Shown piece by piece: positions 9,524 to 23,369 of a stretch of 64,000 nucleotides of DNA. Origin of the DNA: Desulfuromonadales bacterium (GTDB lineage Bacteria; Desulfobacterota; Desulfuromonadia; Desulfuromonadales; BM103). Both the position numbers and the translations under genes were made by a program. Each line of letters starts with the position of its first letter. The stretch's first letter is position 1. The stretch spans positions 1 through 64,000 of the forward strand of contig JACZKE010000006.1 in NCBI GenBank assembly GCA_014860225.1. Direction: 5' to 3'. The notes under the pieces were generated by a model. The model was not told the origin of the DNA. It did no database searches and saw only the letters and a list, made by a program, of their open reading frames with translations.

Positions 9524-12043
9524 TTAATCAATATCAAGCAGTGCCTGCAGAGTATCCCGCATCGCAGAAATACTCACCGGCTTCTGCAGAAAACCGACCA
9601 AACCCTCTTCGCCGAGGAACTTCTGGGCAACCTCCTGCTCACTGTAGCCGCTCGACATGATGATCTTGATGTCGGGCTGGATTTGCCGCAGCTCCCGGAA
9701 GCACTGCTCGCCGTCCATGTTTGGCATGGTCAGATCGAGGATCACCAAGGCGATGCCGGGGGTTTTCCGGAAAATGGCCACTGCTTCCAGGCCATCGTTG
9801 GCCGAGATAGCAGTGAAGCCCAGCTCCTTCAGCATTTCGACTCCCACCCACCGCACCGTCTCCTCGTCGTCGACCAGAAGTATCGTGCAGTGGCTCCGCC
9901 AGTTGTCCAGGCAAGCATCATTCTTGACAATTGCTGCAGGCTGGCTGCTGGCAGGGAGCAACACCTTGAATGTGGTCCCTATGTCAGGCTCGCTATAGAT
10001 TCTGATGGCCCCTTTGTGGCCCCTTACGATGCCGAGCACGGCGGCCATGCCCAAGCCACGGCCGGTGAATTTGGTGGTGAAGAAGGGGTCGAAAATTTTT
10101 GTGAGGGTCTCCTGCTCCATGCCGCAGCCGCTATCGGTGACCTCCACGTACAAGTAGAGCCCACCGCGGAGGTTGTCATACTGCCAGACGTTGTTCAAAT
10201 AACTTGCGTTGCACTCCATGTAGCCGGTGGTGATGGTGATGACGCCGTTCTTCTCACCGATCGCTTCAGAAGCGTTAATGATCAGGTTCATGAATATCTG
10301 GCGTATCTGGGTGGCGTCGGCCTCAAGGGTTGGTAGATTCGAGGCCAGGTTAAAACGCAGCTCCACCGCTTTGGAGATGGAAACCTCCAGCATATGTACC
10401 ATCTCCTCTAGGAGACGGTTTAGATTCAGGTTTTCTACGACGAACTTTCCTTTGCCGGAATAGGCCAACATCTGTCTGGCCAGATCAGCGGCGCGGGCCG
10501 CGGCGGCCTCAATCTTTTGGAGGTTGTCGATGGCGGGCGATTCTGGATTAAGGCGCATCAGGGCCAGGTCTGCGTTACCGATTATGGCCGTGAGGATGTT
10601 GTTGAAGTCGTGGGCAATGCCGCCGGCCAACACCCCCAGGCTCTCCAGCTTCTGTGCGTGAAAAATTTGGCGCTCCAGGTTGAGACGTTCTTTCTCTGCA
10701 TGTTTGCGCTCACTGATTTCCTGATTGAGCAGCTTATTGGTCCGTAATAATTCAGCCGTGCGCTCCGCAACACTCTGCTCCAGCTCTGCGTTGGTCTGAT
10801 GGAGGTCAGCCATCAACCTTTTCCGCTCGGTGATATCGATCATGGCACCATAAAGACGTATACCATTTCCCGCCGAGTCCCGTTCAAAACGGCCTAGCGC
10901 TTCCAGGGTGTGCACAGTGCCATCAGGCAATTGCACTCTGTATTCAGCCCTGTAATCTTCTGCCCTTTCAACCGCCCGTTGTATTAGCGCCTCTGTTGCT
11001 GGCAAGTCGTCCGCATGGATCCGGTCGGCCCAGTGCCGGTAGGTTGGAATAAAGCTGTCCGGCTCGTAGCCGAACATGCGGTAGTGTTCGCTGTTCCAGG
11101 TGATGGTCCCGCTAGGAAGATGCCAGTCCCAAGTCGCCAGATGCGCGGCATCCAGCGCCAGTCGCAAACGCTCTTCGCTCAGGCGGGCCGTATCTTCCGC
11201 CTCCTTAAGGCGGCGAATATCGAGGTTGATACCAACCCAGCAGCTCACCTCACCATGATCATTAAGAACGGGAACTCCGCGTGCCAAAACCGGATGCCAT
11301 TGGCCATCCACGCCGTGAATACGATGTTCAATGTCCCAGACAGATTTGGCGGCTACACATTTCTTCCACGCCGAAATGGTGCGCTCCGCATCGTCGGGGT
11401 GGAGAACTTTGCTCCAGCCGAAAGAAGAACACTCTTCCTGGGTTAAGCCCACCAGTCTGAGAAAAGAATTGCTGATGTATCTATTCCTTCCATCAGCGGT
11501 GCAGACCCAGACACCGTAGTCTATGGATTCACCTATGGAGCGGTAAATCTCTTCGCTCTGCCGTAGCGCCTCTTCGGCATGTTTCTGTCGTGTTATGTCA
11601 TAGTTGATGCCGAGAAAGATCAAGGCTTGGCCGTCATTAGTAAACCCCCCTTTGCCGGCCATCCAGCGCACCTCGCCATCGGCGCGTATAATGCGAAACT
11701 CCGCATCGAAGATTCCGACCCGTTTCGCTTCATCCCAAGCTCTAGCCAAAAGTTCCAGGTCTTCGGGGTGGACATAGCGGAAGAAGGATTCGGGACCAGG
11801 GGGAACGTCGCCCGGCAGAAGGCCGAGCAGTTCAAACTCCGTGTCGTTCCACCGGCCTTCTCCTGTCCGGAGATCGAACTCGAAGATCCCGGTTGAACTG
11901 GCTTGGAGTGCCAACCGCAAACGCTCTTCGCCAGGGCGCAACGATGCCTTGGCTTGCAGGGTCTCTTCGGTGTTTTTCAATTGGAGCTGGAGGATTTCCA
12001 GTTTTTTTAGAAGGTCTTGTCGGGACATCTTGTCGGGGGTCAT
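9524..12043 (-). CDS. Soluble PAS hybrid sensor histidine kinase with receiver
   Basis: This 839-residue protein starts with a short coiled coil. Three PAS/PAC units follow (about 45-160, 160-285 and 285-410, each ending in a D(I/L)xxRK-type PAC end), then a coiled coil. The HisKA domain (phospho-His in GIAHDFNNILTAI), HATPase (NLIINASEAIG, GRGLGMAAVLGIV) and C-terminal receiver (ILLVDDEE, ILDLTMPNMDG, SSGYSE, LQKPVS) come last. No membrane helix is seen, so it should sense cytoplasmic redox, light or small-molecule signals through PAS cofactors. No DNA-binding output is present, and no cognate histidine phosphotransfer protein or effector lies nearby. Confidence 0.93.
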   Translation of the reverse strand: MTPDKMSRQDLLKKLEILQLQLKNTEETLQAKASLRPGEERLRLALQASSTGIFEFDLRTGEGRWNDTEFELLGLLPGDVPPGPESFFRYVHPEDLELLARAWDEAKRVGIFDAEFRIIRADGEVRWMAGKGGFTNDGQALIFLGINYDITRQKHAEEALRQSEEIYRSIGESIDYGVWVCTADGRNRYISNSFLRLVGLTQEECSSFGWSKVLHPDDAERTISAWKKCVAAKSVWDIEHRIHGVDGQWHPVLARGVPVLNDHGEVSCWVGINLDIRRLKEAEDTARLSEERLRLALDAAHLATWDWHLPSGTITWNSEHYRMFGYEPDSFIPTYRHWADRIHADDLPATEALIQRAVERAEDYRAEYRVQLPDGTVHTLEALGRFERDSAGNGIRLYGAMIDITERKRLMADLHQTNAELEQSVAERTAELLRTNKLLNQEISERKHAEKERLNLERQIFHAQKLESLGVLAGGIAHDFNNILTAIIGNADLALMRLNPESPAIDNLQKIEAAAARAADLARQMLAYSGKGKFVVENLNLNRLLEEMVHMLEVSISKAVELRFNLASNLPTLEADATQIRQIFMNLIINASEAIGEKNGVITITTGYMECNASYLNNVWQYDNLRGGLYLYVEVTDSGCGMEQETLTKIFDPFFTTKFTGRGLGMAAVLGIVRGHKGAIRIYSEPDIGTTFKVLLPASSQPAAIVKNDACLDNWRSHCTILLVDDEETVRWVGVEMLKELGFTAISANDGLEAVAIFRKTPGIALVILDLTMPNMDGEQCFRELRQIQPDIKIIMSSGYSEQEVAQKFLGEEGLVGFLQKPVSISAMRDTLQALLDID

Positions 12044-12254
12044 AGCATCACCTCTGCATTCCGCTTTTGCGTTCAGGAAAGTTCTGTTACGCGGAGCCCC
12101 ACCCCAACCAGCGTGTTCAATGCCAAAGTGGGGCCAGAGGCCTGACAGACAGGCTAATGTCCGTCCTGCGCAGATAAGTGCATATCAATTATCCTGGAAT
12201 CGAGGAGGGAATCAATAGTACCTCAAGACCTGATTTTGCATCATAGCCTTTGAG

Positions 12255-12385
12255 AACACCACAAAATAAAGGGTTATCTTCTGATGTGAGAGTGGCGCTT
12301 TTTTCGTGTTTCTCGAGGTTTATTGCTGCGAGATTGGCAACAGGTTTGACAATGGGGTGAGCAGGACAGGATATCGGAAAGCTGT
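12255..12385 (+). repeat. Diverged copy of the tRNA-Glu 3' flank, with terminator-like hairpin
   Basis: The segment starting ACCACAAAATAAAGGG matches the tRNA-Glu 3' end and terminator at 1232-1278 (GCCACAAAGTTAAAGGG...), and weaker similarity continues for about 80 bases. Its hairpin at 12267-12303 has the same layout as the tRNA terminator and ends in a better T-run. No tRNA body precedes it. This may be the second end of an old integration at tRNA-Glu or the scar of a lost tRNA copy. It overlaps the 3' end of the small membrane-protein gene. Confidence 0.55.
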
Positions 12386-12601
12386 GATGCTGTTGTCTGA
12401 GATACGGTTTTTAGCGTTTGACTTATTCAAAACCAACTCGCTTGATGTGAAAGGTTGTCTCCCGCGTACCGCAAATGCAATCACAGCGGTCGCGAGCATA
12501 CCGCCGAATTCCATTGCGCCGAACGCAACCCAGAACGAGTACTGAACGGTCAGAAAAACAAACAATCCCAAAACGAACGCAAGGAAAATAAGTAAACGCA
12601 T
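12320..12601 (-). CDS. Small membrane protein, unknown
   Basis: The predicted protein of about 93 residues begins MRLLIFLAFVLGLFVFLTVQ and has two hydrophobic segments (about 1-20 and 25-45), followed by a hydrophilic tail. The start at 12601 has AGAGG a few bases upstream. I do not recognise a family. The C-terminal tail is encoded by sequence that also forms the tRNA-flank duplicate, so the original gene end may have been replaced. Treat it as a possible gene with a rearranged end. Confidence 0.4.
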   Translation of the reverse strand: MRLLIFLAFVLGLFVFLTVQYSFWVAFGAMEFGGMLATAVIAFAVRGRQPFTSSELVLNKSNAKNRISDNSITAFRYPVLLTPLSNLLPISQQ

Positions 12602-12856
12602 ATACAAGACCTCTGCAGTAGAAATGGTTGCAAATACGTTTTCACAACAACCCTTTGTTGCCTGATAAGCTACTGTCTTGCCCAATAAAAGTAAACGTGG
12701 GGGTTCGTAAGATATGAAACGATATATCGCGGGGCCTAACTGTATAAAGGCACAATTTGATCACTCTGTTTACGAATTAACAAGTCAGTCATGAAATCCC
12801 GTTATATACGCCGCTGGCAATTGAATGACCTGGCAATCGCCTGATCTTGTAGAATG

Positions 12857-13282
12857 TCACCCTTCTCCTTCTCGATAGTTCGCCGGGATAATAGCCTCCT
12901 TTTTTCGATACACCATCCCTTGGAAAATGGCGACGATGGCATTGTCATCATCGGTAATCTGAACAGAGTACGATGCCAGCCTGGGATTCCGTGTCTGCTC
13001 CCTGGCTTCGGCGTAAAGGGTTCCACTGGTGGCAGCTTTGACGAAAGAGATGCTTACGTTTATGCCCATTGCCAGCGTGCCATGAGAGTTTGAGGCGACC
13101 GCAAAAGCAAAGTCAGCAAGGGTAAATATGGCACCTCCATGTACAGTTCTGGCCCCATTAAAGTGGTACGGCTCAATCCTCATGCTGGCTTTTGCCCGCC
13201 CCGGACCGACCTCAAGAAGTTCTATGCCATTATGTCGGGCAAACAAGTCTTCCGCAGAAAAAAACTGCATTATCTCTTTCAT
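12857..13282 (-). CDS. PaaI-type hotdog thioesterase
   Basis: This roughly 141-residue protein carries the hotdog signature HFNGARTVHGGAIFTLADFA. The HGG turn and the acidic residue of the central helix are typical of PaaI/YbgC-like acyl-CoA thioesterases. These enzymes release coenzyme A from phenylacetyl-type or other acyl-CoAs in the cytoplasm. The start at 13282 (MKEIMQFF) gives the usual family length and follows a purine-rich AGGG; an ATG 60 bases upstream would add about 20 poorly conserved residues. No pathway partner is adjacent, although aromatic acyl-CoA chemistry is predicted at 46-51 kb. Confidence 0.82.
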   Translation of the reverse strand: MKEIMQFFSAEDLFARHNGIELLEVGPGRAKASMRIEPYHFNGARTVHGGAIFTLADFAFAVASNSHGTLAMGINVSISFVKAATSGTLYAEAREQTRNPRLASYSVQITDDDNAIVAIFQGMVYRKKEAIIPANYREGEG

Positions 13283-13536
13283 GAGACCCTGATCCTCTCC
13301 GTTTTGTTTGTTAGGGGTATTTTCTGCAAGCATACCATCCAAAACTCTGCTGCAGGCAGTGTTATTGTTGCAAACACGCTTTCATTAATTAGGGATGATA
13401 TGTAGCAAATCGCGTGGCGATGGCCTGTCCGGTCTGGTTTGCAGCCCGTCATCTTTCTGCCGGTTCCGATGTCGGATGAATTCTTTCATCGAAGTCACCC
13501 GCTGAGGTTGTTGACGATCTTTGAAAAGCGGAAATG

Positions 13537-14343
13537 TTAATTGCCGGGACTTGGCCACATCTGCTTGGCAACCTGTTGGCCATTTTTGATTTGATTCAGA
13601 TTCATTTGTCTCTGCGCGATTTCGATGTTGTCTCGAGCTATTGCGGCGCCATTGGCCTCAGCCTCAACCCAGCATCTGTAAGCATCTTCATAGCTTTGCG
13701 GAACACCTCTGCCCTCAAAATACATGTTCCCCAGATTGTTTTGGGCATCCGCATCTCCTTGCGCAGCTGCCATGCGATACCACCTCACCGCTTGCTTTTG
13801 GTCCTGTCCCACACCTTGGCCATTTGCATACATGTTGCCGAGATTGCACTGGGCAACCGCATTGCCCTGCTCAGCAGCCATGCGATACCATCTTACCGCG
13901 TTCTTATAGCTCCGTTCTGAGCCTTGTCCGCTTTCTAACATGAACCCAAGATTATTCTGGGCAATTGCATGACCTTGCTCGGCGGCCTTTCGATACCACT
14001 TCACTGCTTTCTTGTAGTTTTTAGGTACATCTCGGACTTGAGAATACATAACCCCTAGATTGTTCTGGGCGTCCGCTTCTCCTTGCTCGGCAGCCATGCG
14101 ATACCACTTCACAGCCTCCTTATAGTTCTGTTCCACGCCTTGGCCGTTTGCATACATGGTCCCGAGATTGTTCTGGGAAATGGCGCAACCTTTCTCAGCT
14201 TCAATAAGCCAGAGTTGACAGGCCTTTTTAAAATTTCCTGCAGCATAAGCCTGCAAGCCATCTTCACGATGTTCAGCAATCGGTACAGATGCCAGGGCAA
14301 TAAGAATGAGCACAACAACATTGATTTGAAGTAACTGTTTCAT
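13537..14343 (-). CDS. Exported Sel1-like repeat protein
   Basis: This 268-residue protein has a signal peptide (MKQLLQINVVVLILIALASVPIA) followed by about six Sel1-type helical repeats of 36 residues. Their consensus is visible as AVKWYRMAAEQG-ADAQNNLGVMY. Sel1 proteins are alpha-solenoid scaffolds that mediate protein-protein contacts, often in the envelope. The start at 14343 is set by AGGAGG directly upstream; an in-frame ATG 63 bases earlier lacks such a site and would place charged residues before the signal peptide. The near-identical repeats make the gene prone to expansion and contraction. No operon partner is seen. Confidence 0.85.
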   Translation of the reverse strand: MKQLLQINVVVLILIALASVPIAEHREDGLQAYAAGNFKKACQLWLIEAEKGCAISQNNLGTMYANGQGVEQNYKEAVKWYRMAAEQGEADAQNNLGVMYSQVRDVPKNYKKAVKWYRKAAEQGHAIAQNNLGFMLESGQGSERSYKNAVRWYRMAAEQGNAVAQCNLGNMYANGQGVGQDQKQAVRWYRMAAAQGDADAQNNLGNMYFEGRGVPQSYEDAYRCWVEAEANGAAIARDNIEIAQRQMNLNQIKNGQQVAKQMWPSPGN

Positions 14344-14602
14344 AGGACCTCCTGTTCGCTTCCCAACAGGACACGCGCAAAACAAACAACCGCTGGTCCG
14401 CATCATGCCGGCAACAGCAGTCTATCGGCTGGTCATATTGTTCGGATTGATCAAGACAGTCCTCCGTGGCGATGGAGCGTTGTTGGTTTGTTGTCATCAA
14501 CTTTACCAGGACGTGAACCGAGGTCAAATGTGAGGTGTTTTGTCCTCACGGCAAGACTGCGACATGGCAGAAGCTTTTTGCGCAAGTCCCACTGACGAAT
14601 AT

Positions 14603-15645: not shown

Positions 15646-17075
<1,430 letters not shown>

Positions 17076-17098
17076 TCTTAGCAAGCAATGATATTTCG

Positions 17099-17135
17099 GG
17101 GCCGGCGAGTTTTTTGCCGGCCCTGTACTTTTTTT
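17099..17135 (+). terminator. Rho-independent terminator of gdhA
   Basis: GGGCCGGC (17099-17106) pairs perfectly with GCCGGCCC (17116-17123) and is followed by TGTACTTTTTTT. It lies 23 bases after the gdhA stop. Confidence 0.9.
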
Positions 17136-17291: not shown

Positions 17292-19886
17292 ATGACCGAC
17301 AGGTGGGTTACAACTGGTTTCAGCGGCCTTGACGAAATTCTGGATGGCTTGCGTCTCGGTGATAATGTCGTCTGGAAAGTCGACAGCATTGAAGATTACC
17401 GGTACTTTGTCGCACCCTATGTCAAGCAGGCACTGGCCGATGAGCGCGAAGTCGTCTATTTCCGTTTCGGCGAGCATCCACCTGTCGTTGATCCGGAACT
17501 GCCCGTTGAAATTTATGCGCTCGACCCGCGCGAGGGTTTCGAACCTTTTACCTGTGCCATCCACGCGATAGCCACCGAGAAAGGCACCGGTGTCTTCTAC
17601 GTGTTCGACTGCCTCTCCGACCTGCTCACCGCATGGGTCACCGATCACATGATCGCCAACTTCTTCAACGTGACCTGTCCTTATCTTTTTCGTCTCGACA
17701 CGGTGGCTTACTTTGCCCTGCTGCGTAATCGCCATGCCCATAAAACCATTGCCCGGGTTCGTGAGACGACCCAGGTCCTGCTTGAGCTTCACAATCGCGA
17801 TGGGCAGATATTTGTCCACCCGCTCAAGGTCTGGGAGCGGCACTCGCCGACCATGTTCCTGCCCCATCGCCAGGACGGCGACAGTTTTGTTCCTCTGGCC
17901 AACAGTCTGGAAGCAACTGAACTTTTGGCCAGAGCTTATCGTCAGGATCAGGCAGCCGGCAGCCGGCGGCTCGATCATTGGCATCGCCTCTTTCTGCAGG
18001 CCGAGGAGTTGAACTCTGGGGAGGTCTCGTCCGAGGAGCAGGAGATGATGGTGGCCCATCTTTGTCGGCACCTGATTGGCCGTGAAGACAATATCCTCGA
18101 TTTGGCAAGACGTTACTTCTCGCTCAATGACTTGCTCTCATACAAGTCGCGCATGATCGGTACCGGTTTTATCGGCGGCAAGGCGGTCGGCATGTTATTG
18201 GCGCGTCGCATTCTTGAAGCACAACCGGACGCGGATTGGTCGGAACGACTGGAGCAGCACGACTCTTTCTTCGTGGGCTCGAATGTCTACTATTCCTATA
18301 TCGTCAACAACGGCTGGTGGGAACTTTACGCAGCCCAGAAGACCCCAGAAGCTTATTTCGAGGCGGGCGCCGAGCTGCATCAGAAAATGCTGACCGGATC
18401 TTTTCCGGAACAGTTGCGTGAAGATTTCCTGAGCATGCTCGACTACTACGGCCAGTATCCAATTATTGTCCGTTCGAGTTCATTGCTGGAAGACAGCTTC
18501 GGCAGCGCGTTTGCCGGCAAGTACGACAGTTTCTTCTGTGCCAATCAAGGCTCTCCTGAAGATCGTTACAATGCCTTTGAAGACGCCGTCCGCAAGGTTT
18601 TTGCCAGCACCATGAGCGAAGACGCCCTGACCTATCGCAAGCAGCGTGGCCTCGATCAGCAGGTGGAGCAGATGGGGCTGCTGGTCCAACGGGTCTCCGG
18701 CTCCTACCACCAGCAGTATTACTTTCCGGAGTTGGCCGGAGTCGGCATCTCTTACAATACCTTTGTCTGGGACAAGCATATGGATCCGAAAGCCGGTATG
18801 CTGCGTCTGGTCCTCGGCCTCGGCACCCGTGCGGTTGACCGGGTCGAGGGGGATTATCCGCGGATTGTTGCTCTCGATGAACCGATGAAGCTGCCTCTCA
18901 AAGGGTATGAAGATATCCGACGCTTCTCGCAGAAGGATGTAGACCTGGTAAATATCGGCGATAACGACTTGCAGTCGCTATCGCTGTTTCGCCTGATCAG
19001 CGAAGGTCTTGACCTGAACCTTGAACGTTACGGCGTTCCTGATCGAGAAACTATGGATAGACTGCGAGAGCGTGGCAAGCCGAAACAGAAAGTCTGGTTA
19101 CTGACCTTCGAACACCTGCTGACCAAAACGGACTTTCCTGCAAAGATGCAGAGGTTGCTAAAGACCCTCGAAAGTGCTTATCAGTATCCGGTCGATATCG
19201 AATTCACAGTCAATAACACCGCCGACGGCGTTGCCAAAATCAACCTGCTGCAATGTCGGCCGCTGCAGACCAAAGGACTGAAAAAGCGCGTCAGCATACC
19301 GGACCAGATACCCGCGGAAAAGATCTTCTTCAGTGCAGAGGGTGGCTTCATGGGCGGAAACACGGCCTTGCCGATCAAACGGGTGATCTGGGTCGATGGC
19401 AGACATTACTCGCAACTCTCACTTTCCGACAAACATGAAGTCGCCCGCCTGATCGGTCGTCTCAACCGCCGTATTAAAGATCGTGAGCAGCAGCCAACGC
19501 TGTTGCTTGGCCCCGGTCGTTGGGGAACCTCGACCCCCTCCCTGGGAATCCCGGTAAAATTCTCTGAAATCAATAATATGGCAGCCATCGGTGAAGTTGC
19601 GTTTGCGGAAAGCGACTTGATGCCTGAGTTGTCATTCGGCTCACATTTCTTCCAGGATCTGGTTGAGGCCGACATTTTTTACCTCGCCCTGTTCCCGGAC
19701 ACCTTCCCTTGCACGCTGAACAAAGATTGGCTCTACCAGCGGACCAATCTCCTGGAAGGCCTGATGCCGAGCAGCAGTCGCTTCAAACCGGTGGTCAAGG
19801 TTGTTGACATTCCGCCGCAGAATCTGTTGATGCTGGCGGATGTGGTTAGCCAACGACTGGTATGCTCCTGGGTTGACCAAATCTGA
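17292..19886 (+). CDS. KaiC-like domain fused to PEP-synthase-type ATP-grasp domain
   Basis: This 864-residue protein has an N-terminal RecA/KaiC-like domain (about 1-220, beginning TTGFSGLDEILDGL). Its Walker A is degenerate: LRLGDNVVWKV stands where GxxxxGK(T/S) is expected. The middle (about 290-660) matches the pyruvate/PEP-binding ATP-grasp domain of PEP synthase and pyruvate phosphate dikinase, with GGKAVGMLLARR, VRSSSLLEDSFGSAFAGKYDS and FASTMSEDALTYR. The phosphohistidine swivel domain and the PEP/pyruvate barrel of those enzymes are absent. It cannot therefore be a complete PEP synthase and more likely acts in regulation or phosphotransfer. No operon partner is seen. Confidence 0.8.
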   Translation: MTDRWVTTGFSGLDEILDGLRLGDNVVWKVDSIEDYRYFVAPYVKQALADEREVVYFRFGEHPPVVDPELPVEIYALDPREGFEPFTCAIHAIATEKGTGVFYVFDCLSDLLTAWVTDHMIANFFNVTCPYLFRLDTVAYFALLRNRHAHKTIARVRETTQVLLELHNRDGQIFVHPLKVWERHSPTMFLPHRQDGDSFVPLANSLEATELLARAYRQDQAAGSRRLDHWHRLFLQAEELNSGEVSSEEQEMMVAHLCRHLIGREDNILDLARRYFSLNDLLSYKSRMIGTGFIGGKAVGMLLARRILEAQPDADWSERLEQHDSFFVGSNVYYSYIVNNGWWELYAAQKTPEAYFEAGAELHQKMLTGSFPEQLREDFLSMLDYYGQYPIIVRSSSLLEDSFGSAFAGKYDSFFCANQGSPEDRYNAFEDAVRKVFASTMSEDALTYRKQRGLDQQVEQMGLLVQRVSGSYHQQYYFPELAGVGISYNTFVWDKHMDPKAGMLRLVLGLGTRAVDRVEGDYPRIVALDEPMKLPLKGYEDIRRFSQKDVDLVNIGDNDLQSLSLFRLISEGLDLNLERYGVPDRETMDRLRERGKPKQKVWLLTFEHLLTKTDFPAKMQRLLKTLESAYQYPVDIEFTVNNTADGVAKINLLQCRPLQTKGLKKRVSIPDQIPAEKIFFSAEGGFMGGNTALPIKRVIWVDGRHYSQLSLSDKHEVARLIGRLNRRIKDREQQPTLLLGPGRWGTSTPSLGIPVKFSEINNMAAIGEVAFAESDLMPELSFGSHFFQDLVEADIFYLALFPDTFPCTLNKDWLYQRTNLLEGLMPSSSRFKPVVKVVDIPPQNLLMLADVVSQRLVCSWVDQI

Positions 19887-20541: not shown

Positions 20542-20982
20542 ATGACACCTGCCCCTTCACCGCTGTTGGCGGTATCTCCGGATTTCGAATCATATCTGGC
20601 TCTGGTAATCTACATCGGCATCGCAATCTTTGTAATTGCAGTCCTGTTGCTGCTTTCCTGGGGACTCGGACAAAAAACCCGCTCCCGGCAGAAGCAGGAG
20701 CCCTACGAATCGGGCATCTATCCACTCGACAATGCCCGTATCAAGGGGCCGGTGCCTTTTTATCTGGTGGCTATCTTCTTTGTCATTTTCGACGTCGAGG
20801 TGATCTTTGTCGCGTCCTGGGCGGTCGCCTCTGACCGGCTTGGCTGGCCTGGTTTCGCCCACGTTTGTTTCTTTATCTTCATACTTTTTCTCGGTCTGGT
20901 ACATGTCTGGAAGACCGGTGGTCTCGATTGGGGGCCACGGGCGCAGCGTGAGAAGCTCAGGACGGAACGGAGCGACATGTGA
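20542..20982 (+). CDS. nuoA: NADH-quinone oxidoreductase subunit A
   Basis: This 146-residue membrane subunit of complex I has three transmembrane helices (about 17-40, 75-100 and 108-130). It has the family motif [22 protein letters not shown] and the FDVEVIF segment, whose acidic residues contribute to the quinone-pocket proton channel. It opens an operon of 12 genes that together cover all 14 core subunits. Its stop codon overlaps the GTG start of the nuoBCD gene by 4 bases. The length is slightly above the usual 120-145 because of the N-terminus. Confidence 0.94.
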
Positions 20983-23369
20983 GCGAACAGCTGCCGGACA
21001 ATGTCATTCTGACCACCCTGGACGACGTCATCAACTGGGGGCGCAAGAACAGTCTCTGGCCGATGTTTTTCGGCCTTTCCTGCTGTTTCGTCGAAATGAT
21101 GACAAGCATGACTCCCCGTTTCGATCTTGCCCGCTTCGGTGCTGAGGTTCTGCGCAGTACACCGCGCGAGGCTGACCTGATGATTATTTCCGGGACACCA
21201 TTCAAGAAGATGGGCGCCAGCATGCTGCGTGTCTATGAGCAGATGGCCAACCCAAAGTGGGTTATTTCGATGGGCAGCTGCGCCAACTCCGGCGGCATGT
21301 ATGATGTCTACAGCGTTATGCAGGGTGTCAACCAGATACTGCCGGTTGATGTTTACGTGCCCGGCTGCCCGCCGCGGCCGGAAGCGTTCATGCAGGGGTT
21401 GATCCTCCTTCAGGAAAAGATCGCTCGCGAAGAACGCCCCTCTCGCAAAGTGCTCGGCTTGCAGGGAGGCAATGAGGGGACCTCCTTGCCGTTGAAGGTC
21501 GACGGCGCCAGCAAAAGCCGCGACACACGCGGTCCCGGATTCGGCAACAGTCCGAATCGCGGCACCTCAGCGAAACCGCCAGATTTCTGGGGAAGCCGTG
21601 CCGCACAAATATGGCGTCCGCCGCAAGCGCGCGTCGAGTTTGTTACGTCGACAGCCGACCTGCGCAAAGCCCTGCATGACCATTTCGGTGAACGGGTGCG
21701 TGAAGACGCCAAGAGCGCAGATATGCCGACCTTCTGGACCGAGAAGGAAACGGCTCCGGAGCTGCTGCGTTTCTTCAGGGAGCAGGCACCGCAGAGGTTC
21801 CGTCGTCTCGAAGATCTGACTGCCATCGACGAACGTGCCCGAAAAAAGCGCCCCGACCACGATTTCACTCTCGTCTACCACCTGCTTTCCTACGATGATC
21901 CCGGCTATTTGCGGGTCAAAGTGCCACTTCAGGGTGAGATGCCCACGGCACCGACGATCACCGGCGTCTGGACCTCCGCCAACTGGTACGAGCGTGAGGT
22001 CTTTGACATGTTCGGCATCAATTTTAAAGGCCATCCCGATTTGCGTCGCATCCTTATGCCCCATGACTGGGCAGGACATCCGCTACGCAAAGAGCATGTC
22101 AGTCGCGCTACGGAGATGGCGCCCTTTACCCCGCAAGCAGCCATGAAGATGGTACCGCGGGATGCCGAAAGCTTCTTTGACGGCAGAGAAATGCAACGGG
22201 TCGATGACGAAACCATGATTCTTAACCTTGGTCCGCATCATCCCGGGACCCATGGTATTTTGCGTTTAGTCGCCAAGCTCAGCGGCGAGGTGATTGAAGA
22301 CGTCGACGTCGATCTGGGCTATCACCATCGTGGTGCCGAAAAGATTGCCGAGCGCCAGCACTGGAACCAGTTTATTCCCTACACCGATCGCATCGATTAT
22401 CTCTCCGGCGTACAGAATAATCTGGCTTACCTGTTGCCGCTGGAGACCATGCTCGGCGTTGAGGTGCCGGAGCGTGCTCAGGTCATCCGCGTGATGCTCT
22501 GCGAGCTGTTCCGCATCGCCAACCATCTGGTCTGGCTGGGAACCTTTGCTCACGATATCGGCGCCATGACCCCGGTCTTCTATGCCTTCGAAGCGCGTGA
22601 AAAGATTTTCGATATCATCGAGCAGGTTACCGGCGGGCGCATGCACCCGTCATGGTTCCGTATCGGCGGTTTGCCGATGGATCTTCCGGATGGCTGGAAG
22701 ACGACCGTGGATATCTTCACCCGCGACTTCGACAAGCGCATCGACGAGCTCGACTCCATGCTCACCGATGGACCAATCTTCAGGGCTCGCACCGAAGGGA
22801 TTGGTGTCACGACCCTCGACGAGGCGATCGACGGGGGTATGTCCGGACCCAATCTGCGTGCCTGCGGTCTGCAATGGGATCTGCGAAAAAAGATGCCCTA
22901 CTCAGGCTATGAACGTTTCGAATTCGACATCCCCACCGCTGACAGCGGCTGCAGCTTTGCCCGTTACCTGGTGCGCCTCGAGGAATTGCGCCAGAGCCTG
23001 CGCATCGTCAAGCAGGCTGCTGCCGACATGCCGGATGGACCCTATGTGACCAGCGATTACCGCTATGCCTACCCGGAACGGAATGCCGGCAAAAAGGATA
23101 TCGAAACGCTGATTCACCATTTTATGAATGTAAGCCAGGGTTTGACGCCGCCACGTGGCGAATGTTATCGCGGCATCGAATCGAGCAAGGGCGAGTGCGG
23201 ATACTACGTGGTCAGCGATGGCGGCAACACCCCCTATCGGCTGCGGATCCGCACGCCGAGCTTTGCTCAGATGCAGGCATTGCCCAAGATGGTCAAGGGC
23301 TGGATGATCTCGGATCTGATCATGGTGCTGGGGGCGATCGACTTTGTCTTGGCGGATTTAGACCGGTAG
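20979..23369 (+). CDS. nuoBCD: NADH-quinone oxidoreductase fused subunits B/C/D
   Basis: One open frame of 796 codons joins three complex I subunits. Residues 1-165 are NuoB, with the four ligands of cluster N2 visible as Cys35 and Cys36 (GLSCCFVEM), Cys101 (GSCAN) and Cys130 (PGCPPRPE). A Gly/Ser/Pro-rich linker spans about 166-212. Residues 215-380 are NuoC ([28 protein letters not shown]). Residues 410-796 are NuoD, with [14 protein letters not shown] lining the quinone site. C-D fusions are common in enterobacteria; B-C-D fusions are rarer and, as far as I recall, occur in relatives of Geobacter. The GTG start overlaps the nuoA stop. All catalytic residues I can check are kept. Confidence 0.95.

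Follow-up and report, generated by a model that had tools for sequence, protein, structure and literature searches.

In positions 1 to 64,000 of contig JACZKE010000006.1 from a Desulfuromonadales bacterium (phylum Desulfobacterota), i.e., the whole stretch of 64,000 nucleotides that was analysed and is called the window here, an open reading frame (ORF) was found downstream of gdhA, a gene for glutamate dehydrogenase (GDH), at a gap of about 217 bp. The protein of 864 amino acids (aa) joins a KaiC-like domain to an ATP-grasp domain of the pyruvate phosphate dikinase (PPDK) type, PPDK_N, and to a C-terminal domain (Table 1). The gene is present once in the genome, where a phosphoenolpyruvate (PEP) synthase-like frame is the sole other match, and a weak one. 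The probable role of the protein is that of an energy-driven switch in nitrogen use, and not the making of PEP.

Table 1. Coordinates of the ORF, its parts and its upstream neighbours in the window.
Feature	Position	Strand	Basis
ORF, 864 aa; KaiC-like domain, helical linker, PPDK_N ATP-grasp domain, C-terminal GRWG/GSHFF domain	17292..19886	+	Frame and relatives
KaiC-like domain, aa 5-195; no Walker A; GDN motif at aa 23-25; Walker-B-like D106	17304..17876	+	Fold match
Helical region, aa 196-290, linking the KaiC-like domain to the ATP-grasp domain	17877..18161	+	Model secondary structure
PPDK_N ATP-grasp domain, aa 294-673; K297, R394, E637, Q654, R656	18171..19310	+	PF01326, E 3.3e-49
C-terminal domain, aa 674-864; fold possibly like swivelling beta/beta/alpha domains; no Pfam family	19311..19883	+	AlphaFold2 (AF2) model, fold rows
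GRWG motif, aa 742-745	19515..19526	+	Alignment of 91 rows
H785 codon; candidate phospho-accepting histidine	19644..19646	+	Invariant in 91/91 rows; helix position in the model
gdhA, NADP-specific GDH; conserved neighbour	15726..17075	+	NF006929, 767 bits (cut-off 536)
Hairpin like an intrinsic terminator, with a 13-bp stem and a T-run, in the gap between gdhA and the ORF	17097..17125	+	Terminator scan

Full-length relatives showed 37-90% identity to the 864-aa protein. At E <= 1e-30, relatives were found in 80 of 297 genomes of the phylum, spread over 32 family labels (counted by hand), and in 19 of the 22 genomes of its own family. Outside the phylum, they were found in Bacteroidota, in the phylum to which G329 belongs (a metagenome-assembled genome, MAG, with the title Propionibacterium), and in another MAG, titled beta proteobacterium. 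No relatives were detected in IMG/VR with the whole protein and the C-terminal alignment, or in PHROGs. In the titles and abstract starts of the open-access literature, no description of the family, the GDH link or the KaiC fusion was found. In one MAG, the copy (L010, 2272-4862) is broken into overlapping frames of 366 aa and 521 aa, by sequencing error or decay.

The core of the protein, i.e., PPDK_N and the C-terminal domain, was found at 86 places in the phylum after two split matches (G195, G240) were merged. The places were classed by aligned range and order. The KaiC-type class has 56 places, a count that takes in G175:C264, a 4.3-kb contig with aa 459-859 only, and G203, with aa 114-858 only. 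A middle group of 18 places has other N-termini, with proteins of 757-1071 aa where the whole frame was read, and the remaining 12 places encode longer proteins, mostly of about 1000 aa, called receiver-type here.

The association of the gene with nitrogen genes is strong. Neighbouring GDH genes were recognized by tblastn, since the choice of the longest ORF hides GDH under overlapping frames. GDH was found within 5 kb at no fewer than 67 of the 86 places, i.e., at least 43 of 56 KaiC-type, at least 14 of 18 middle-group and at least 10 of 12 receiver-type places. The main GDH table alone gave at least 60 places (at least 36, 14 and 10, respectively). The seven added places were G140 (L156), G244 (L155), G184 (L078), G296:C22 (L076), G214 (L077), G253:C111 (L082) and G268 (L167), of which L082 and L167, the latter at a contig end, have partial GDH frames. 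A further eight KaiC-type places, i.e., G157, the second copy in G224:C59, G067, G097, G131, G030:C9, G207 and G230 (L157, L159-L165), adjoin glutamate synthase or Amt, PII, GlnD or type III glutamine synthetase. When ten example nitrogen-neighbour proteins were checked in Pfam, nine matched the expected families. A sigma-54 activator with a GAF domain was also among the neighbours (by Pfam in L162, with similar proteins elsewhere by eye), and 10 of 88 scanned loci had NrpR. These 88 loci, some of which are two stretches of one place, included 68 with a nitrogen gene and 56 with GDH.

Genes with PF00391, the family of the swivel histidine domain, were used as a control. None of 20 such genes of the same order had these nitrogen genes in flanks of about 5-6 kb, four of which were cut by contig ends. 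Of the 20 control genes, 18 are in GDH-bearing genomes, and 17 of the 19 genomes have GDH. Beside it, 37 of 48 loci of the family had a nitrogen gene, in a set that includes loci picked for unlisted GDH. An earlier control of 33 loci gave no nitrogen gene in flanks of about 1.5 kb, which were too short. At the level of genomes, GDH was present in at least 79 of the 80 gene-bearing ones vs. at least 72 of the 217 others (Fisher p 3e-28, uncorrected for relatedness). The sole gene-bearing genome without GDH among the matches listed is G199, which is 88% complete.

The neighbouring GDHs belong to two distant families, i.e., an NADP type of 445 aa and an archaeal-like one, which matches NF040817 at 606-616 bits, under the cut-off of 750. 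Gene order and orientation vary, and 14 GDH/ORF pairs are convergent. Because of this variation and the two distant GDH families, the association would not be one inherited block. In Bacteroidota (plasmid collection), GDH adjoins the gene in two of three records, i.e., in Parabacteroides and Phocaeicola and not in Prevotella. It also adjoins in the MAG titled beta proteobacterium (L011/L151), where it is 80% identical to the window GDH, so that mis-binning is possible. A relative was found in 5 of 149 genomes of the G329 phylum. GDH adjoins it in 2 of the 5; two of the three loci without adjacent GDH are at contig ends. No GDH was found within the sequence at the Prevotella locus L139, or at L150, L147 and L143, of which L143 is a 3.3-kb contig and the L147 match stops 25 bp short of a contig end. 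Conserved-neighbour analysis, proposed as a check in an earlier reading made from the sequence only (the sequence-only reading), gave the most informative evidence, i.e., the tie to ammonium and glutamate genes, which is out of reach for a reading of the sequence by itself.

In the Pfam search, PPDK_N was the only domain of the 864 aa at E <= 1. The NCBIfam models of PEP synthase, PigC, rifamycin phosphotransferase and PPDK were matched in part, over their ATP-grasp portion and far under the cut-offs. The five residues K297, R394, E637, Q654 and R656, which we take to have the roles of a PPDK-type ATP site, were identical in ten of ten relatives and in five of five PEP synthases of the group. 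They were also unchanged in all rows of a wider alignment of 91 rows, which holds stop-free frames only and 90 distinct cores, the window protein being counted twice. The ATP site therefore looks intact at the level of sequence. For rifampin phosphotransferase, an effect of Lys22 has been described (PMC4844700).

No PEP/pyruvate TIM barrel was detected by Pfam at E <= 1 across the 864 aa, and aa 660-864 searched alone matched no family. By its domain content, then, the protein is not a complete PEP synthase. This agrees with the sequence-only reading, which had described a PEP/pyruvate-binding domain with conserved motifs, a missing barrel and a protein unable to complete PEP synthesis. Its further suggestion, that another target is phosphorylated, is reasonable, as is a regulatory role, because the genome holds four other frames with classical PF00391 domains, of 841, 596, 918 and 805 aa. 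The fourth PF00391 match of the genome is at G000:C44:41865-42083, inside the 805-aa frame.

The whole-protein AlphaFold model has a mean pLDDT of 55; ten-residue blocks reach 73-84 at residues 31-80 and only 32-39 at residues 1-30. In this model of low mean pLDDT, residues 25-161 matched KaiC (5jwq) with Z 12.1 and an rmsd of 2.7 A over 129 aligned residues. FlaH (4yds) was matched over aa 10-161 with Z 9.5, along with further RecA-like chains. Foldseek alone was weaker on the N-terminal part, the best E value being 1.0e-3 (FlaH), and Pfam gave no KaiC match in this stretch by sequence. The RecA/KaiC-like fold and the degenerate nucleotide loop claimed earlier were both borne out. The Walker A P-loop was absent from all 22 aligned KaiC-type relatives, which conserve GDN(V/I)V where it would stand and keep D106 of the Walker-B-like strand in 22 of 22 cases. 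As Walker A is lost, the KaiC-like domain should not act as a normal ATPase. A second, tandem RecA-like domain as in KaiC is not present; the KaiC-like stretch ends at about aa 195, and roughly 95 aa remain before PPDK_N at 294.

The N-termini of the family differ around one core. In four of the relatives without a KaiC-like domain (L083, L084, L086, L101), the alignment starts at aa 197-205. Both longer proteins tested in Pfam had receiver domains (PF00072), i.e., L092 at 1.9e-8 and L096 in two stretches at 1.4e-7. The second receiver-like stretch keeps its acidic pair, Asp and Lys in all eight aligned proteins, one of them from Parabacteroides, as judged by eye. Between the receivers and PPDK_N of L096, DUF5752 (PF19027) was also matched, though weakly (E 0.0002, just under the cut-off). 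The N-terminus of the relatives of 757-792 aa looks mostly helical by eye, and the one tested gave weak, unconvincing Pfam matches. GAF-like N-termini had been read by eye in L089 and L090; this reading was dropped, as Pfam found nothing at E <= 10. The relative in L090 (5514-8729, minus strand) also has a C-terminal NTP_transf_2 nucleotidyltransferase domain (PF01909), recalling GlnD-type chemistry.

Stand-alone KaiC-like genes were found near KaiC-free relatives at two of 22 such loci, i.e., L083 (2571-3878, minus strand) and L153 (13116-13784, minus strand), both without a P-loop. The one in L083 matched PF06745 at E 0.0022, under the cut-off, and carries XRE and cupin domains. Both genes are near NuoE/NuoF-like frames, by eye. 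Because one core is combined with varied N-termini, and stand-alone KaiC-like genes lie near KaiC-free relatives, the N-termini may be read as exchangeable inputs.

The C-terminal 190 aa, folded alone by AF2 with 14 aligned sequences, gave a model with pLDDT 87 and pTM 0.88. In structure comparison, PPDK chains (5jvl, 5lu4, 5jvj, 1kbl) were matched over the phosphohistidine domain with Z 4.1-4.7. One of these matches is 5jvl 375-512 (Z 4.7, rmsd 3.5, 122 aligned). About 43 of the 50 fold rows listed presumably have the swivelling beta/beta/alpha fold of SCOP, a label that was not computed. These rows are the cyclase/kynurenine formamidase, the CCT apical domain, LD-carboxypeptidase, RraA, the PA domain, the pyruvate kinase C-terminus and the PPDK phosphohistidine domain. 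H785 is the only invariant histidine of the 91 rows, the next best being kept in 74. R743, G745, E768, S781, G783, F786 and F787 are invariant too, and W744 is kept in 90 rows. In the model, a strand is followed by an S-x-G-[ST] loop and then by a helix whose second residue is H785, and this helix start is presumably the kind of site that the phosphohistidine takes in swivel domains. The C-terminal domain is therefore a candidate cryptic swivel domain, as the model suggests, and not a member of PF00391.

We infer from the sequences that the core is catalytic. The protein is tentatively read, at somewhat less than an even chance, as a sensor-gated regulator of ammonium and glutamate metabolism that spends ATP through its PPDK-type ATP-grasp domain. 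The KaiC-like domain would bind a ligand or partner and gate the core. The ATP-grasp domain would move phosphate from ATP to H785 with AMP as a product, i.e., the first half of the PPDK/PEP-synthase cycle. The charged C-terminal domain might then hand the phosphate to a putative target, i.e., GDH or another nitrogen-assimilation protein, or bind it differently. This reading is based on the ATP site and H785, invariant in all 91 rows, on the lack of a detectable barrel, the PPDK phosphohistidine and pyruvate kinase C-terminal domains among the fold rows, the varied N-termini, the adjacency of nitrogen genes and the co-occurrence with GDH, and on the precedent of VadK, a barrel-less PPDK with histidine autophosphorylation and pathway tuning that is described below.

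Several points weigh against this reading. Among the matches listed, 11 of the 86 places have no nitrogen gene (the first copy in G224:C59, G132, G104, G174, G175:C264, G094, G237, G057, G199, G105 and G145:C6), and four of them, G175:C264, G094, G057 and G199, are at contig ends. The Fisher p of 3e-28 for the co-occurrence of the gene and GDH overstates independence, as the genomes are related. GDH does not need the gene, because at least 72 of 151 GDH-bearing genomes are without it. Also, gdhA and the ORF need not be one operon, as the hairpin separates them in the window and the pairs of 14 loci are convergent.

The other points concern the histidine domain. No PF00391 match was found in the protein, and when 41 C-terminal sequences were compared with 21 swivel segments in hhalign, the probability was 0.5%, with a narrow swivel profile of PEP synthase and enzyme I (EI)-like frames from which PPDK frames were left out. 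In a MAFFT alignment with PEP synthases, the histidines were not brought together, and the loop differs from the GGxTSH type. Swivel domains have been described as bearing a T/SxxGGxxxH signature (PMC12167813), which is absent from the C-terminal domain. The structure comparison gave low Z scores, 4.0-5.6 across the 50 rows listed, and Foldseek alone found nothing for the C-terminal model at E <= 0.001. As hhalign and MAFFT gave no sequence relation, the swivel idea draws on fold and position only. The sequence-only reading had held that the swivel histidine domain is missing. This stands for the sequence and is doubtful for the structure, where the C-terminal part ranks mostly beside swivelling folds at weak Z and holds the invariant H785. 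The finding that the sequence-only reading had itself named as its refutation, a swivel histidine domain predicted in the C-terminal part, is thereby seen in terms of fold, though weakly by Z, and is not seen in the sequence.

A purely allosteric sensor is a serious rival. In such a protein, the ATP-grasp domain would bind ATP, ADP or AMP as a non-catalytic sensor of energy or nitrogen, the protein would be an allosteric partner of GDH without phosphate transfer, and the C-terminal histidine would be structural. The loss of Walker A from all 22 KaiC-like parts and a histidine domain that is not recognizable by sequence are in its favour, and the neighbours include PII and NrpR, which are known nitrogen sensors. 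However, the invariance of all five ATP-site residues and H785 in the 91 rows seems to go beyond the needs of binding alone, and this explanation is considered unlikely. Less probable still is a small-molecule dikinase on the pattern of rifampin phosphotransferase or HpeHI. The phosphate of H785 would then go to a metabolite of glutamate or ammonium metabolism, bound in the linker or N-terminal part. Metabolic genes surround the gene, and PPDK_N enzymes of this kind are known (PMC4844700, PMC12167813), but the N-termini differ between subfamilies with the same neighbours, so that no common substrate domain is visible outside the core.

A split PEP synthase, with the barrel supplied by another subunit, would fit an ATP-grasp domain of the PEP-synthase type. 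It is very improbable, as other frames of the genome, of 841 and 918 aa, carry PF00391 and are as long as a full PEP synthase or PPDK, and the listed neighbours are nitrogen genes among which no barrel gene was noticed, no systematic search for one having been made. That the ORF is a degenerate remnant without function, as the missing Walker A and barrel could suggest, is hardly credible against its conservation over 32 family labels and other phyla and the ATP-site residues kept in every row, i.e., in stop-free frames only.

The preferred reading, a sensor-gated regulator spending ATP, can be extended. The family might be a widespread, unrecognized class of ATP-driven histidine phosphotransfer regulators of nitrogen, an ATP-powered counterpart of the nitrogen-related phosphotransferase system (PTS-Ntr). 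A cryptic swivel histidine would be charged, and sensor modules, i.e., the Walker-less KaiC, the double receiver and others, would time the handover to GDH or another ammonium-assimilation protein. This wider proposal is possible and rather doubtful. A new signalling class would be added should H785 prove to be phosphorylated and to act on nitrogen metabolism. GDH and ammonium uptake are central nodes of the carbon/nitrogen balance, and we know of no post-translational regulator of GDH in Desulfobacterota or Bacteroidota. The conserved ATP site, the swapped N-termini and the tight genomic link make the protein a direct candidate for such a regulator, and the idea is testable by a pair of mutations, at K297 and H785.

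In the surroundings of the gene, eight terminator-like sites were counted in the region, where shuffled sequence gave 5.9 +/- 2.3, and only the strength of the hairpin in Table 1 supports it. After the ORF and an RNase HI-like gene, nuo genes follow, here and in near relatives; a frame of 796 aa (20979-23369, plus strand) seemingly joins NuoB, NuoC and NuoD, by eye. Upstream, at 9524-14406 on the minus strand, a PAS hybrid sensor kinase with a receiver, a 4HBT thioesterase and a Sel1-repeat protein are ordinary neighbours.

The protein was compared with known systems. Its aa 25-161 share the fold of the RecA-like ATPases KaiC and FlaH, whereas here the domain is single, has lost Walker A and is fused to an ATP-grasp core. 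Enzyme I of PTS-Ntr shares the idea of a histidine phosphotransfer chain that is linked to nitrogen status, but it is driven by PEP, in place of the ATP-grasp domain here. The Bacteroidota protein WP_041525632.1, named as a PEP/pyruvate-binding domain-containing protein, has the same core with the H785 motif GTHFFQNL and adjoins gdhA. It differs in its N-terminus, which is receiver-type and not KaiC-like, and its record gives no function.

PEP synthase and PPDK have in common with the protein a PPDK_N with the K, R, E, Q and R positions, in an order of ATP-grasp and then another domain. They differ from it in that here there is no barrel, no PF00391 by sequence, and a KaiC-like N-terminus. Rifampin phosphotransferase and the HpeHI, CreHI and PpsAB dikinases likewise combine an ATP-grasp domain with an acceptor other than pyruvate; they are described as having substrate-binding and recognizable swivel domains, whereas neither was recognized here by sequence (PMC4844700, PMC12167813).

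The nearest precedent is VadK (Rv1127c) of Mycobacterium tuberculosis. VadK is described as a truncated PPDK with the ATP and histidine domains only, i.e., without the PEP/pyruvate domain; it is reported to autophosphorylate on His422, to interact with enzymes and to tune the methylcitrate cycle (PMC13400623). The likeness is in a PPDK-type ATP domain followed by a histidine-bearing domain, which is a candidate only in the present protein, in the lack of a barrel, and in the tuning of pathway enzymes, as proposed for the present protein. VadK is described with the central histidine domain of PPDK, whereas the C-terminal domain here was not recognized by sequence; its link is to the methylcitrate cycle, in contrast to the ammonium and glutamate genes here, and an N-terminal domain is added in the window protein. 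By analogy with VadK, the protein would be a variant of barrel-less PPDK with another histidine domain and another pathway. If this is true, PPDK-type catalysis would have been recruited for regulation again, as in VadK.

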